Shown in pieces: positions 6,538 to 11,772 of a stretch of 36,599 nt of DNA (positions are counted from its first letter, which is position 1; the number at the start of each line of letters is the position of its first letter). Origin of the DNA: Phycisphaerae bacterium (GTDB taxonomy: Bacteria > Planctomycetota > Phycisphaerae > UBA1845); assembly GCA_029260215.1 (NCBI GenBank), contig JAJDDQ010000081.1, positions 1-36,599 on the forward strand, given 5' to 3'. A program made the translations under genes and the position numbers. The notes under the pieces are model-generated. The model ran no database searches and was not told the origin of the DNA. It worked only from the letters and a program-made list of their open reading frames with translations.

Positions 6538-6737
6538 GTTTTCCGTCGGTATCGTTGCACAAACCTTGACTCTTATCGCGCCGAAACCGACACTATGCTG
6601 GAGGTTCGGCCCAGGGGCTGCTAGCGGGTGGCCCCGACAGCGTTACCTCCTTTTTTATGCGCTGCACAGCCGAATCAGCGTTTCAACGGCGTGGCTGATG
6701 TGTGACAGGCAGCCACACAACGAAGAGTTTCAATCCC

Positions 6738-7247
6738 ATGCTCGACTATAGAATCGGTCCGGAGACGAAACGACTCGAACACCGTGCTCTTACGGTTGAC
6801 GATAAGGAGGCGTTCTTCGCGCTGAATAGCGACCCCGACGTGATGCGGTTTACCGGCGAGCCTCGGCTGCGGTCGCTGGAGGAAGCTGGGGAGGCGATCG
6901 CGCACTATCCCGATTTCGATACGGTCGGCTACGGTCGCTGGGGCTGCGTGTTGAAGGAGAGCCGCTCGATCATCGGTTTCTGCGGGCTGAAGTATCTCAA
7001 CGAGTTTGATGACGTCGACGTCGGTTTTCGATTTCTGCCGCGATACTGGGGCCGTGGTCTGGCGACTGAGGCGTGTACAGCGAGCATCGCTTTCGGATTC
7101 GATGTCCTAAGACTCGGACGCATCATCGGTCTGGTGCTGGAGGAAAATCTCGCATCGATCCGTGTGCTTGAGAAAGTCGGAATGCGTAGAGACGGATCCA
7201 TCACGTACGAGGGGGAAACCGTGTTGCGGTACGAAATCAGCCGGTGA
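6738..7247 (+). CDS. GNAT-family acetyltransferase (RimJ/RimL type)
   Basis: 169 aa from ATG 6738; an upstream GTG at 6702 would add 12 residues without a better ribosome site. The fold follows the RimJ/RimL GNAT pattern: a substrate strand with RLEHRALTVDD, IIGFCGLKYL, DVDVGFRFLPRYWGRGLATEA (acetyl-CoA pyrophosphate loop), and near the end NLASIRVLEKVGM. This family transfers an acetyl group from acetyl-CoA to the N-terminus of ribosomal or other proteins, or to small amines. The acceptor is unknown. It is a single gene, 200 bases after the EEP gene. Confidence 0.88.
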   Translation: MLDYRIGPETKRLEHRALTVDDKEAFFALNSDPDVMRFTGEPRLRSLEEAGEAIAHYPDFDTVGYGRWGCVLKESRSIIGFCGLKYLNEFDDVDVGFRFLPRYWGRGLATEACTASIAFGFDVLRLGRIIGLVLEENLASIRVLEKVGMRRDGSITYEGETVLRYEISR

Positions 7248-7502: not shown

Positions 7503-7530
7503 TTGACACACCAAGCCCCGCTGTTAGCCT
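7503..7530 (+). promoter_or_regulatory. Candidate sigma-70 promoter of the riboswitch operon
   Basis: A perfect -35 hexamer TTGACA (7503-7508) is followed after 16 bases by TAGCCT (7525-7530), a poor -10 match. It lies just ahead of the cobalamin aptamer, where a promoter is expected. Confidence 0.45.
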
Positions 7531-7534
7531 TAAT

Positions 7535-7735
7535 CGTAGCTGGTGACCCGCACGGTGCGGGTCAAACAGGGAATCCGGTGTAATTCCGGAGCGGCCCCGC
7601 CGCTGTAACCGAGAACGACCGCTGCACGAAGTCATTGATCCGGTGTTTCACGGATCGAGAAGGCGCAGCCAGTAGGTCGGCTGATGCGAATCGATGATTC
7701 GCCAGCCACGCTCGGGAGCCAGAAGACCTACCAGT
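7535..7735 (+). ncRNA. Cobalamin (vitamin B12) riboswitch
   Basis: The conserved landmarks of the AdoCbl aptamer occur in order. A hairpin GACCCGC/GCGGGTC (7545-7563) is followed by the core AAACAGGGAA, then CCGGTGTAATTCCGG, then GCGGCCCCGCCGCTGTAACC. A variable hairpin GCGAATC/GATTCGC follows. Last comes the B12 box GAGCCAGAAGACCTACC (7716-7732). GTAGGTC at 7672-7678 is perfectly complementary to GACCTAC at 7725-7731 inside the box and may contribute a conserved or alternative stem. It lies 165 bases upstream of the start at 7900. In known cases B12 binding lowers expression of downstream uptake or B12-replacing genes. I saw no T-rich terminator, so control may act on translation. Confidence 0.93.
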
Positions 7736-7899
7736 TTGAACCTTTGGCCGTGGCACTCTCGTGGGAGGAGTGGCGCCGTGTCTTCGATCCATCTGCGTAT
7801 CGCCGTTTCGGCAAGATTTCACGCAATCGACTGGTATCGATCCTGCGACGTGACCGTTCCGCGCGCGGTGTTCCGGCTGAATCTCGGAAGGAGATGGTC

Positions 7900-9006
7900 A
7901 TGCTGTGCAATGGAATGAGTGGATTCAATGTTGGATTAGTTGGGCTTTGCTTGTTGGCTGCGTTCGCGTCGCGTGCGGACGAGGCTTGCGCGGGCGGAAT
8001 TGACGACTACGAGTTGATGGGCACGGTTTCGCTTCCGGGTGGGGGAGGCCCGTTCGATGTTCTGTCCGACGGGCGCATCGTGTCGCTGGGCGGAAGCGAT
8101 TTGTATGTCGAGAGCGCGGTGGGTACGGGGACGTTCGACTTTTTCGGTGCGGTCCCCGGGGCGGATTTTTCGTCCTTCGGAGCCGGGTTTCTTGAAGTCT
8201 CGCCCGGTGGAGATCGAATCGCCATCGGCAACGGCGGCGGTGAGAGTTTTTCCAATTTCGAGGTCGGCGTCTTCGATGCGAACAACCTCTCCGGTTCGTG
8301 GTTCGGCGTTGGTCATTTCGCCGCGACCTGGTACGACGATACGCAGCTCGCGTTGACGGCTGCTACGTTCGGCAATCCGGGCGTGGTGACGATGCTGGAC
8401 ACGACGAGTGACCCGCTCAATCCGACGAACCCCGTCGTGGTCGACGGCGTTGGTGGTGCTTCGGGCGGCATTGCGTTTGACGACGCCGGCGGACTGTACA
8501 CGGGCAACGGGTTTTCGATCACAGGCCCGAGCGGGACCGGGGCTGTCATGCAGTTTCCGCAGGCATCGTGGCTGCCGGCGCTTTCCGGGGGGGAAGCGGT
8601 TGACTTCGAATCGGACGGAAATTTCATCATCGACATCCTGTCTGCCTCATCACTGGGGTTCGACGGATCGGGGAATCTTCACGTTGGCGGTGGGGATTTT
8701 GGCGTCGATGGCGACTACGCGGCGATCATCGATGCCCTCGCGGTTGCGGCTGCGCGAGAGGGGCAGGGGCCGGTGAGCGCGCGCGACGGCAGCGTCGTAC
8801 GCCGGTTCGATCCTGATCCTTCGGCCAATACATTTTATTCCGTGAATTTCAACGATGTGACCGGCGATTTGTATCTGCAAAGCGGTTCGACGGTTTATCG
8901 ATACGCTGTGCCGGAACCGATGACGGCTGCGCTGTTGCTGGTCGGCGCTGCGGTGTTGCTGCGGAAGCGTCGCTCCTCCCGAAAGGGCGGTTATGTTGTG
9001 GGTTAG
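7900..9006 (+). CDS. Exported PEP-CTERM protein under cobalamin riboswitch control
   Basis: 368 aa. GGAAGGAG (7886-7893) lies six bases before ATG 7900; the longer frame back to 7684 would run through the riboswitch and is rejected. The N-terminus is a signal peptide (GLVGLCLLAAFASRADEACA). The body is rich in Gly/Ser/Asp with repeated short beta-like segments (GRIVSLGGSDLYV, GGDRIAIGNGGG, DDAGGLYTGNG), suggesting a beta-propeller. The tail has the sorting signal: VPEP, a hydrophobic helix (MTAALLLVGAAVLL) and RKRR. PEP-CTERM proteins are exported and processed by an exosortase. It overlaps the next gene by 14 bases. By analogy with the propeller protein BtuG of Bacteroides it could capture B12 at the surface; that is inference. 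Confidence 0.85.
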   Translation: MLCNGMSGFNVGLVGLCLLAAFASRADEACAGGIDDYELMGTVSLPGGGGPFDVLSDGRIVSLGGSDLYVESAVGTGTFDFFGAVPGADFSSFGAGFLEVSPGGDRIAIGNGGGESFSNFEVGVFDANNLSGSWFGVGHFAATWYDDTQLALTAATFGNPGVVTMLDTTSDPLNPTNPVVVDGVGGASGGIAFDDAGGLYTGNGFSITGPSGTGAVMQFPQASWLPALSGGEAVDFESDGNFIIDILSASSLGFDGSGNLHVGGGDFGVDGDYAAIIDALAVAAAREGQGPVSARDGSVVRRFDPDPSANTFYSVNFNDVTGDLYLQSGSTVYRYAVPEPMTAALLLVGAAVLLRKRRSSRKGGYVVG

Positions 9007-10168
9007 CCTCGCACGCAAACGTAATTGCATCACTCTGGCGGTGTTGGCGATGTTGTGTGCGTACGGTCTTGCGTCGGCTGAGACTCCGTTCGCCGCGACG
9101 GTGGTCGAGTTTGCACCCGCGCCGGGGCAGCTCGTCAACAACCCTGCCTTCAACGATCCGGCGCGTGCGCTGGGTGCTCCGTCGGGCGGGGGTACGTTGT
9201 CGCCGGACAATTCGTCCGTTGTTTCGCTTGGCGGATTCGGCGGATCGATCACCTTGGCATTCGATCACACTGTGCTGGACGACCCAGCCAACCCGTTCGG
9301 CATGGACGCTGTCGTGTTCGGCAACGCGTTTTGGGTGGGCGTGGCTGGCGACGCGAATCGTCACTGGGCTGAGTGCGGCGTGATCGAAATCGCCCGCGAT
9401 ACCGACAATAACGGTATGGTCGATGAAGACGAAACCTGGTACGTCATCTCCGGTTCGCACATTGTCGATCTCGACGCTCAGTTCATTGAGCAAACCTGGG
9501 ACGACGACTGGCAGGATTCGGCTTTTCCACCAGCCAACCCCGGCTGGATTCCGCCCGGTGAGATCGGAGTCTGGCAGACCGCAGGTTTTAAATTGCCGCC
9601 GGAGATTTTTGGTGTGCAGGTTGTGGTCAATCCCGCAGGCCCCAATGCCGTCGTAGAAGGCGCGTTCGGGTATGCGGACTATTCGCCGACGCTCGTTCTC
9701 GGCGATACAAACGGCGACAACATCGTGGACGCGCCGCAGCAAACCGCCGAAGAATTCTATACGTTTCCCGACGACCCGTTCGCAGTCGGGATGACATTGG
9801 GATCGGGCGGCGGTGATGCGCTCGACATAGCCTGGGCAGTCGATCCCCTGACCGGCATGCCAGCCGATCTGGATGGATTCGACTTTGTTCGGATTTCCAC
9901 CGGATCGAATGTGCTGTTGGGCGCGTTTGGTGAGTTATCGACCGAAATTGACGCCGTGTCTGATGTCTCGCCCGGTCTGATGGGCGACGCCGATGCGGAC
10001 GGTGATATTGACCTGTGGGATTTGGCTTTTCTGATCGATTGTACGACAGGGCCGGAGGTCGCCATCGGCGATCCGGTGTGTCGCATTTTTGATTTCGATT
10101 TTGATAACGATGTCGATCTAATCGACTTCAGTGTCATGCAGATCGTGTTTACGGGTGAGGGCGGATGA
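8993..10168 (+). CDS. Surface protein of the LGGFGG type with dockerin-like tail, in B12-riboswitch operon
   Basis: 391 aa. Signal peptide to about residue 29 (GLASA-ET). The N-terminal domain carries VVEFAPAPGQ (38-46), VSLGGFGGSITLAFDH (77-92), VVFGNAF (107-113) and a NNGMVDEDETWYVISGS segment. From memory this arrangement (APGQ, LGGxGG, FDH, GNxF, NG-x-x-DDxWYEL) marks cell-surface proteins encoded beside cobalamin riboswitches and TonB transporters in Bacteroidota. The C-terminal 65 residues are a dockerin-like pair: GDADADGDIDLWDL and DFDFDNDVDLIDF. The start at 8993 overlaps the preceding gene, and the stop overlaps the next start as ATGA, so translation is probably coupled. It likely binds or handles B12 outside the cell; this needs testing. 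Confidence 0.85.
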   Translation: MLWVSLARKRNCITLAVLAMLCAYGLASAETPFAATVVEFAPAPGQLVNNPAFNDPARALGAPSGGGTLSPDNSSVVSLGGFGGSITLAFDHTVLDDPANPFGMDAVVFGNAFWVGVAGDANRHWAECGVIEIARDTDNNGMVDEDETWYVISGSHIVDLDAQFIEQTWDDDWQDSAFPPANPGWIPPGEIGVWQTAGFKLPPEIFGVQVVVNPAGPNAVVEGAFGYADYSPTLVLGDTNGDNIVDAPQQTAEEFYTFPDDPFAVGMTLGSGGGDALDIAWAVDPLTGMPADLDGFDFVRISTGSNVLLGAFGELSTEIDAVSDVSPGLMGDADADGDIDLWDLAFLIDCTTGPEVAIGDPVCRIFDFDFDNDVDLIDFSVMQIVFTGEGG

Positions 10169-11001
10169 TGGCACGGTTGCTTGTCAGCAGACGACTCAAT
10201 GCAAGCCGGCGCAATACAGAGACATTGCGCCCCCGGCCCGCCTTCACATTGATCGAACTGCTGGTGACAATCGCGATTGTGTCTTTACTGTTGTCGATTC
10301 TGGTTCCGAATTTGTCGGCCGCCCGTGCTCAGGCGCGGGCGGCTGTCTGCGCTTCAAACGTGCGTCAACTGGCGTTGGCCAATCAGATGTACGCCCATGA
10401 AAATCAGGACCGTGCGTGCCCCGGGGCAGTCAACTTTGTTGAGAATCGACATCGATGGCACGGCGTGCGGTCATCGTCGTCCGGGGCATTTGATTCGGCG
10501 CTCGGCCCGCTCGTCCCGTACCTGGGGGCTGACGGTGCGATCCGTCAATGCCCGCAGTTTCGCAACTATGATTCTGGTGGAAACGGCTTCGAGCTTGGAA
10601 ACGGTGGATACGGATACAATAATGCGTTCGTCGGTACGGTCGTGCGTCCCCTCGGCGGCGTGTTTCACATTGTCGAGACAGACTTGACCGGCACACTGAT
10701 GAGCCGCGTGCGCAATCCGGCGGGCACCGTGTTTTTCACCGATGCCGCATTCGCCGCGGTTGACTTAATCGAATACAGCTTCGTCGAGCCGCGTTTTTTT
10801 CCGACCAACGGATTCAGACCCGATCCGTCTGTTCATTTCCGGCATAGCGGCGGTGCCAATGTCGCCTGGGGAGACGGGCACGTTGACCGTCGGAAGCGCA
10901 CATTCACATGGTCCAGCGGCCTCTATGACGCTCAGGCGGATCGTTTCAACATAGGCTGGTTCGGCCGGCGCGACGACAACAGTCTGTTCGATCTTCGCTG
11001 A
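10165..11001 (+). CDS. Type II secretion-like pseudopilin with H-X9-DG motif
   Basis: 278 aa. A basic leader is followed by the prepilin processing site and hydrophobic helix: PRPA, then FTLIELLVTIAIVSLLLS (27-44), with Glu31 at the conserved +5 position. Near the C-terminus HSGGANVAWGDGHV fits the H-X9-DG pattern of the large planctomycete pseudopilin family (DUF1559 and relatives). Such proteins are inserted in the inner membrane and processed by a prepilin peptidase. Their role is poorly known and many copies usually occur per genome. It begins inside the stop of the preceding gene (ATGA overlap), placing it in the same B12-controlled operon. Confidence 0.9.
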   Translation: MMARLLVSRRLNASRRNTETLRPRPAFTLIELLVTIAIVSLLLSILVPNLSAARAQARAAVCASNVRQLALANQMYAHENQDRACPGAVNFVENRHRWHGVRSSSSGAFDSALGPLVPYLGADGAIRQCPQFRNYDSGGNGFELGNGGYGYNNAFVGTVVRPLGGVFHIVETDLTGTLMSRVRNPAGTVFFTDAAFAAVDLIEYSFVEPRFFPTNGFRPDPSVHFRHSGGANVAWGDGHVDRRKRTFTWSSGLYDAQADRFNIGWFGRRDDNSLFDLR

Positions 11002-11028: not shown

Positions 11029-11772
11029 TTACATGTACATGCCGCCGTTTACGTTTATCACTTGCCCGGTGATGAACGACGCCTGTGGCGCTGCCAGGAA
11101 ACGCACGGCGCGGGCGACTTCGTCGGGTTGGCCGAGTCGGCCCATCGGAGTCAGTTTCTTGATGATCTCAAGTGCCGAGTCGGGGACTTTGGCAGTCATG
11201 TCCGTTTCGATGAAACCGGGTGCGACCGCGTTGACGGTGACGCCTTTGGCTGCGACTTCGCGTGCGAGCGTCTTGGTGAATGCAATGAGACCGCCCTTGG
11301 CGACGGCGTAGTTGGATTGGCCGAAATTGCCCATCTGCGCCACGATCGAGCTGATATTGATAATGCGACCCCACTTGCGCTCGCACAGTTGCGGCAGGAT
11401 CGCACTGATGACATTGAACGGCCCGTCAAGATTAACCAGGAGCACTTTGTGCCATTGATCCTTGGTCATCTTGAGGAAAGAGCGGTCGTTGGTGATACCC
11501 GCGTTGTTGACGATGACGTCCACGCGGCTGAAGTCGTTCATGATCTGCTCGATCATGACGTTCGTTTGCTCTTCGTCGGATACGTCGGCCCGGTATGCGT
11601 TGGCCTGCACACCGTGGCTGCGCAGTTCTTCCGCCACTTTCTCCGCCGCATCTTTACGCGAGAGGTAGTTGACGGCGACGGTGCTCCCCGCCGCTGCAAG
11701 CGCGTGACAGCACGCCCGTCCGATTCCTCGCGAGCCACCGGTGACAATTGACACTTTTTCGTGCAGATCCAT
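11029..11772 (-). CDS. phaB: Acetoacetyl-CoA reductase (PhaB)
   Basis: 247 aa, the usual PhaB/FabG length. NADPH-binding TGGSRGIG at 11-18, NNAG at 89-92, catalytic Ser141/142, Tyr155 and Lys159 (GNFGQSNYAVAK), and the end VNGGMYM. PhaB reduces acetoacetyl-CoA to (R)-3-hydroxybutyryl-CoA, the monomer for PHA synthase. FabG-type 3-oxoacyl-ACP reductases are very similar, but the PHA gene neighbourhood and the GxFGQxNY sequence favour PhaB. It is the last gene of the locus and also has its own candidate promoter (11857-11885). Ribosome site GAGAGGAAAAA precedes the ATG. It converges with the pseudopilin gene. Confidence 0.88.
   Translation of the reverse strand: MDLHEKVSIVTGGSRGIGRACCHALAAAGSTVAVNYLSRKDAAEKVAEELRSHGVQANAYRADVSDEEQTNVMIEQIMNDFSRVDVIVNNAGITNDRSFLKMTKDQWHKVLLVNLDGPFNVISAILPQLCERKWGRIINISSIVAQMGNFGQSNYAVAKGGLIAFTKTLAREVAAKGVTVNAVAPGFIETDMTAKVPDSALEIIKKLTPMGRLGQPDEVARAVRFLAAPQASFITGQVINVNGGMYM

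Follow-up and report, generated by a model that had tools for sequence, protein, structure and literature searches.

Nearly all that is understood of how diderm bacteria import vitamin B12 (cobalamin) across the outer membrane comes from TonB receptors such as BtuB. The proteins BtuH, BtuG and BtuJ are already known, as are cobalamin riboswitches, and the propeller of BtuG is seven-bladed. For Bacteroides thetaiotaomicron, the structure of BtuH2 with bound B12 (7BIZ) is reported to show contacts to the phosphate and ribose through Gln333 and Asn399, to the tetrapyrrole through His476, Tyr510, Trp511 and Trp577, and a further contact through Phe401 (PMC8941943), while the structure of the BtuB1-BtuG1 complex (8BLW) accompanies the description of BtuG1 as a propeller naturally fused to a BtuH domain (PMC10404256). 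The BtuJ family corresponds to DUF4465; B12 binding is reported for the eight members that were tested, and one protein taken forward came from Mucisphaera calidilacus, a planctomycete of the class Phycisphaerae (PMC13398666). Here we describe a locus in a 36,599-nucleotide stretch of DNA from a Phycisphaerae bacterium (contig JAJDDQ010000081.1; the whole stretch is called the window below), in which a cobalamin riboswitch aptamer is followed by genes for a predicted exported beta-propeller (gene 1), a BtuH-domain protein (gene 2) and a pseudopilin (gene 3). We hold it likely, with a probability of roughly 0.8, that this is an operon for acquiring external B12, in which surface binders capture the vitamin, the pseudopilin aids its uptake and a separate BtuFCD-type importer completes it.

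A covariance-model search matched the cobalamin riboswitch family RF00174 at 7524-7749 on the forward strand, over the complete model (1-189) and well above the gathering threshold (100.7 against 31.5 bits; E 2.9e-24), so that the full aptamer drawn at 7535-7735 in the first-pass annotation of this DNA is borne out. It is the sole RF00174 match of its genome (whole-genome search of a 4.97-Mb assembly, 97% complete). Directly behind it lie three genes on the same strand, at 7900-9006, 8993-10168 and 10165-11001, which overlap as had been noted earlier, by 14 nt between genes 1 and 2 and by 4 nt between genes 2 and 3. The terminator search listed no terminator-like site from 7749 to 7900 that would cut the aptamer off from these genes, those detected sitting within genes. 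The leader between aptamer and gene 1 (7750-7899), a possible expression platform, carries a Shine-Dalgarno-like AAGGAG at 7888-7893, six bases 5' of the start of gene 1. Folding against shuffled sequences in search of a stable leader structure gave z values of only -1.33 and 0.28, the latter for 7770-7905, where the AAGGAG region is paired in a hairpin, yet no better than in the shuffles. The riboswitch is predicted to bind B12 and to lower the output of the operon when the vitamin is ample.

The link to known B12 binders comes through gene 2. As a single sequence it matched 8blw_B and 7biz_A in the PDB (phmmer, E 5e-18 and 7.8e-10), and a profile of 23 sequences, its own and those of 22 relatives, did so at E 1.2e-43 and 7.7e-35; the matched part of 8BLW is the C-terminal BtuH domain of BtuG1 (PMC10404256). 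The AlphaFold2 model (predicted local distance difference test, pLDDT, 86.4) aligned with 8blw_B at Z 23.1 (root-mean-square deviation, rmsd, 3.0 over 233 residues) and with 7biz_A at Z 22.5 (rmsd 3.4 over 232), the next entry standing at Z 9.5. Homology and fold span residues 28-326 (~9074-9970). Behind them, at residues ~328-390 (~9974-10162), lies the dockerin-like tail that the first-pass annotation had seen: the single sequence found nothing in Pfam or NCBIfam at E 1, dockerin included; dockerins were matched by the profile of the family and in the structural comparison of the model (Z 7.4 for the last 60 residues). When BtuH2 is aligned, with 7biz numbered by adding 100 to the chain index, an offset that fits Gln333, Asn399 and the range of the structural alignment, Asn399 falls on Asn111 of gene 2, invariant across the 23 sequences, Gln333 on Gln46, conserved in at least 90% of them, and Phe401 on Phe113.

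Besides sequence, fold and the Gln333 and Asn399 contacts, gene 2 shares with BtuH2 and the H-domain of BtuG1 a place in a cobalamin-riboswitch operon beside a propeller protein, which in BtuG1 is fused to the BtuH domain. Unlike BtuH2, it has a dockerin-like tail and no PKD domains, no lipobox was recognised by eye in its signal peptide, and its operon is without btuB. By homology and predicted structure, gene 2 is a BtuH-domain protein, new to the BtuH family and anchored in a different way, and the same evidence supports well a role for its predicted exported product in capture, as a surface B12 binder.

The association between this gene and the riboswitch extends to its relatives. Short exact peptide patterns, run over 84,980 species genomes in a scan that is not exhaustive, gave 23 gene 2 loci, of which 20 have RF00174 upstream on the same strand, and this recurrence makes the suggestion that the operon is a B12 surface system likely. 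The three misses differ in kind: L004 has a sub-threshold match (27.1 bits) at the expected place; L023 starts 585 bases upstream of the match, in a genome without any RF00174 match; and no riboswitch was found within the partly masked stretch of L021 that was searched. The riboswitch of the L021 genome lies elsewhere, at L031, where it precedes genes for a DUF4465 protein and for a second BtuH-domain protein that has 50% identity to gene 2, so that this genome has two BtuH-domain genes, the one at L021 occurring with a pilin. Taken together, the 21 operon-bearing genomes (our own and 20 others, 19 of them titled planctomycetes and one 'bacterium') have exactly one RF00174 match each, that of L004 being below cut-off, and it stands before a BtuH-domain gene.

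The rest of the operon varies among these loci, with gene 1 homologues in 16 of the 23 (tblastn, E of at most 1e-13; a marginal one in L017) and gene 3 homologues in 17 (tblastn, E < 1e-20). No gene 1 homologue was found by tblastn in L003, L019, L020, L021, L022 and L024, and none of gene 3 in L003, L006, L007, L022, L023 and L024; L003 and L006 lie at contig ends, the sequence stopping within gene 2 or shortly behind it. In L022 and L024, from a spirochaete and a member of the Bacteroidales, the BtuH-domain gene is flanked by a TonB receptor and a YncE/DUF5074 propeller, which is the Bacteroides pattern. Across a survey of 195 planctomycete genomes, each at least 90% complete, gene 2 is patchy (17 genomes at E 1e-10) and RF00174 is found in 182.

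Gene 1 is likewise a predicted exported propeller beside a BtuH domain in a B12-riboswitch operon, as is BtuG of B. thetaiotaomicron. Its AlphaFold2 model (pLDDT 87.3) is a beta-propeller (~8008-8910) whose best structural rows are six-bladed designs, with Pizza6 at the top (Z 23.5), and BtuG is absent among the best 50 structures matched to it. In place of the lipid anchor of BtuG it has a C-terminal PEP-CTERM signal (~8905-8976), as the first-pass annotation had proposed, with TIGR02595 above its cut-off (20.7 against 16 bits) and the Pfam model below its own (14.9 against 20.7). It has no BtuB partner gene, the plug matches of the genome being on other contigs. The idea of a planctomycete counterpart of BtuG and BtuH accordingly survives for gene 2, by sequence and by fold; homology of gene 1 to BtuG is unsupported.

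A B12 role for gene 1 is suggested instead by its position. It occupies the place that the propeller holds in the BtuG1 fusion; its homologue shares one open frame with that of gene 2 in L002 and L007; and a DUF4465 gene takes the slot in front of the BtuH-domain gene in L003 and L031 (E 2e-50 and 3e-54). The product of the one in L003 has a PEP-CTERM match slightly below the Pfam cut-off. DUF4465 is absent from the window, PF14717 giving no match in gene 1 at E <= 1, and the fold reported for this family is a beta-jellyroll, unlike the propeller of gene 1 (PMC13398666, PMC12751083). From position and model together, gene 1 probably captures cobamides together with gene 2. The shared frames of L002 and L007 recall the BtuG1/BtuGH fusion, and may be true fusions or reflect the chance lack of a stop.

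Gene 3 (10165-11001) was correctly described at first as an H-X9-DG pseudopilin: PF07963 (N_methyl; 27.5 bits, cut-off 21.2), TIGR02532 (26.1, cut-off 16.3), TIGR04294 (H-X9-DG; 23.0, cut-off 19) and DUF1559 are all exceeded. The N_methyl motif, the DUF1559 N-terminus and H-X9-DG are features it shares with the DUF1559 / H-X9-DG prepilin-like proteins of Planctomycetes, a large group, with 68 DUF1559 paralogs, two of them essential, reported for Planctopirus limnophila (PMC10632474). A profile built from gene 3 and 17 relatives nevertheless separates it from the generic pilins. In six genomes with 12-53 gene-3-related pilins each, exactly one per genome matched over the full length (386, 349, 282, 267, 261 and 145 bits), with the best other match at 95, and the remaining pilins, among the matches listed, matched over the N-terminal part. 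In all six the full-length pilin sits 0.2-2.5 kb behind a cobalamin riboswitch.

The same holds for most of the phylum survey. Of 38 profile matches of at least 100 bits in the 195 genomes, 30 follow RF00174 on the same strand at a distance of 0.1-2.9 kb, or 26 of 34 when the four genomes that fed the profile are excluded. Weaker matches of 88-100 bits away from a riboswitch also occur in G105, G150, G060, G076, G113 and G138, and tblastn with an E limit of 1e-20 found no match to gene 3 on plasmids. As judged from these profile matches, gene 3 is a member of a distinct, mostly riboswitch-linked pilin subfamily.

The place of this pilin among B12-regulated genes was read from 80 riboswitch loci in 78 of the 195 genomes, which are not a random sample because they were drawn from the listed, best-scoring riboswitches. 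The scan covered the first 6 kb behind the riboswitch, with mechanical gene calls and 12 loci shorter than 6 kb, and absences in it are weak because its models were small (four TonB receptors, two DUF4465, one each of BtuF, BtuC and BtuD). A pilin matching the gene 3 model lies on the riboswitch strand in 22 loci, and the pilin motif on the opposite strand in none of the 80. Fifteen of the 22 match at E 1e-37 or better; the other seven (2e-33 to 2e-19) may lie outside the subfamily, because generic pilins also reach such values. TonB receptors are present in 18 loci within 6 kb and in 19 within 8 kb, leaving out one on the opposite strand in L086. Pilin and TonB receptor do not occur together in any locus (Fisher P 0.002 and 0.001, kinship ignored), and neither was found in the first 6 kb of 40 loci.

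Some of these pilins stand next to genes of B12 transport and salvage. L082, in a genome free of TonB-receptor plug domains, reads riboswitch-pilin-BtuF-BtuD-BtuC, with the pilin where BtuB would be; L071 reads riboswitch-DUF4465-unknown-pilin-BtuF-BtuD-BtuC; and L041 reads riboswitch-pilin-small lipoprotein-BluB-CobQ-CobA-CobT, the four enzymes being above NCBIfam cut-offs. In L082 and L041 the pilin occurs without a recognised surface binder. Compared with the BtuB-BtuFCD operons under cobalamin riboswitches, these have the same regulator and in some cases BtuFDC, and the pilin sits in the place of the TonB receptor. No btuB or btuFCD was found with our own operon. The pseudopilin had been taken at first for part of an anchoring system; it does recur with the operon, but its recurrence with BtuFDC or cobamide-salvage genes in loci without a recognised surface binder points to more than an anchor. 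Because it is also found with only BtuFDC behind it, the pilin is the best candidate found in this analysis for the outer-membrane step in genomes free of TonB receptors. Such genomes are common among its carriers: the plug is absent from 22 of the 35 genomes with a riboswitch-associated pilin and from 29 of the 160 others (P 3.5e-7, kinship ignored). The 35 include G080, in which a separate lower-scoring pilin (90.8 bits) adjoins the riboswitch; without it, 34 are linked (P 1.6e-7).

The organisms in question apparently need B12 and seem unable to make it, to judge from their gene content. CbiC, chosen as the marker for corrin-ring synthesis, was found in none of the 21 operon-bearing genomes, several of which are incomplete metagenome assemblies, and B12-binding domains matched in 20 of them. 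The TonB-receptor plug was undetected in 14, sub-threshold in one and above cut-off in six; a strong FecCD permease match (E < 1e-60) was present in 19. In our own genome the FecCD match lies in an operon of BtuF-, BtuD- and BtuC-like genes on another contig, without a riboswitch. The lack of a TonB receptor or ABC transporter at the locus, remarked on from the start, extends to the whole contig of the window (C80), which has neither plug nor FecCD matches, those of the genome being on C33 and C47.

From these elements we infer that the exported proteins bind B12 and lie at the surface, that B12 represses the operon, what the importer carries and how the pilin acts. At low cellular B12 the riboswitch would permit expression of the operon; the BtuH-domain protein, probably with the propeller, would be exported and catch cobamides at the cell surface or beyond it, a binder's place that DUF4465 proteins would take in relatives. 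The dedicated pseudopilin most likely assists the vitamin on its way to the outer membrane or across it, and might itself serve in transport, perhaps in BtuB's place. A separate BtuFCD-type ABC importer would then carry out the inner-membrane step.

A number of results weigh against this scheme. Gene 1 has no sequence match to BtuG in the PDB, in single-protein or profile searches. In gene 2, the tetrapyrrole contact Trp577 of BtuH2 is replaced by Ala, and His476, Tyr510 and Trp511 fall in a region of unreliable alignment where no gene 2 counterpart could be placed, although these contacts come from one characterised member and may not define the BtuH family. Our own genome has two TonB receptors, and the B12 substrate of its importer can only be presumed, because the BtuF-like protein, while matching BtuF best, is far under the equivalog cut-off (99 against 234 bits). 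Plug matches number seven in the L071 genome and one in that of L041. The 35 genomes with riboswitch-associated pilins span 13 families, two of which (f2 and f26) account for 16 of the 22 that are plug-free. L007 has the riboswitch, gene 1 and gene 2 without a tblastn match to gene 3. Finally, eight of the 38 strong pilin matches are not riboswitch-linked: six in genus g55, one in G190 and one in G080. Four of the six g55 genomes lack any RF00174 match, and the pilin had no recognised B12 gene close by in the four g55 loci that were read (L120, L121, L122 and L124), nor in G190 (L123). The g55 pilins without an adjacent switch may reflect either loss of the riboswitch or a different ligand.

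How much of the uptake falls to the pilin is where the explanations diverge. It is possible, at somewhat less than even odds in our estimate, that the operon serves capture only: genes 1 and 2 would bind B12, an unlinked TonB receptor or porin would transport it, and the pilin would export, anchor or display the binders. A second cluster in our own genome lends itself to this explanation. On C33, at ~303-309 kb (L030), a pilin, a PEP-CTERM-ended protein and a dockerin-tailed protein are followed by one of the two TonB receptors and a TonB-like gene (all but the pilin and the receptor named by eye); such exported sets can therefore accompany a TonB receptor, and DUF1559-type pilins are numerous enough to be general display parts. 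Restriction to capture is harder to square with the 14 of 21 operon-bearing genomes in which no plug domain was detected, with the pilins of L082 and L041, which keep company with BtuFDC or cobamide-salvage genes and no recognised surface binder, and with the complete separation of pilin and TonB receptor in the 80 loci. The opposite extreme would have the pilin act in the manner of competence pili, which pull in DNA, and draw B12, either by itself or on a loaded binder, through a secretin as the pilus retracts, independently of TonB. The pilin of L082, in BtuB's position directly before BtuF-D-C in a plug-free genome, and the excess of plug-free genomes among carriers of riboswitch-linked pilins both fit this, as do pili-like fibres of planctomycetes reported to bind gold-labelled dextran; these fibres are described as extending from crateriform structures, and some of the dextran gold appeared internalised (PMC5394234). 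No secretin or retraction ATPase was found linked to the pilin, no genome-wide search for them having been made. To our knowledge, moreover, no pilus imports a vitamin, and we consider this mechanism unlikely. The broader proposition that many planctomycetes import B12 over the outer membrane without BtuB or TonB, by means of a pseudopilin working through a secretin, surface binders and BtuFCD, seems to us equally doubtful.

An explanation outside uptake altogether, for example a set of surface or biofilm proteins that is repressed by plentiful B12, would draw on PEP-CTERM, dockerin and pilin being generic signals of exported proteins. It would leave the BtuH homology, DUF4465 in the slot of gene 1, and BtuFDC and cobamide-salvage genes in the pilin operons of relatives without a reason, and we regard it as very improbable. 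We retain acquisition of external B12, with capture by surface binders and help from the pilin, as the reading of the locus.

In the literature searched, which excluded subscription papers and preprints, we found no dedicated pilin combined with a lack of BtuB, and no paper on DUF1559 with cobalamin or on BtuH with Planctomycet; cobalamin riboswitch with pilin returned, by title, only other organisms. What sets the system apart is a single B12 switch over exported binders and a dedicated pilin, in a group without the corrin-ring marker and mostly without a detectable TonB receptor. Should the pilin move the vitamin, this would be a new kind of system and a new outer-membrane route for a small molecule, the first pilin-based small-molecule importer; one of the numerous DUF1559-type pilins found in planctomycetes would then have a function, and the system would tie in with the pili-like fibres implicated in their uptake of macromolecules (PMC5394234). 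Should it merely display the binders, BtuH-type capture would still be extended to another phylum.

Several other features were observed among the riboswitch loci. In L055 (G123), L060 (G163) and L079 (G184) a BtuG/YncE-like propeller, recognised with our own model, lies behind the cobalamin riboswitch, and in the first two it is preceded by a protein of ~500 aa that by eye resembles an outer-membrane porin; G163 has no plug match, and this is possibly another TonB-free B12 route. In L048, L061, L078, L090 and L107 the first gene behind the riboswitch encodes an exported-looking protein of ~480-600 aa, with similar C-terminal ends by eye, and neither pilin nor TonB receptor was detected nearby. 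B12-independent isozymes, MetE and ribonucleotide reductase, were recognised by eye in L066, L075 and L100, and other loci free of pilins and TonB receptors hold exported proteins of unknown kind. Long genes beside the riboswitch in L002 and L018 were considered as secretins and rejected, being an MscS channel and a HEAT-repeat protein. The neighbours of the pilin in L120, L121, L122 and L124, a full-length one of the riboswitch-linked type, are, by eye, a small lipoprotein-like open reading frame (ORF), an NHL-like propeller and an FG-GAP-like ORF, and a His-rich ORF lies upstream of the L030 cluster. In the window itself, the upstream neighbour of the riboswitch is an acetyltransferase-like ORF (6702-7247) and the downstream neighbour of gene 3 a convergent fabG-like ORF (11029-11772, reverse strand), both named by eye; because it is flanked by these two, the unit comprises the riboswitch and the three genes.

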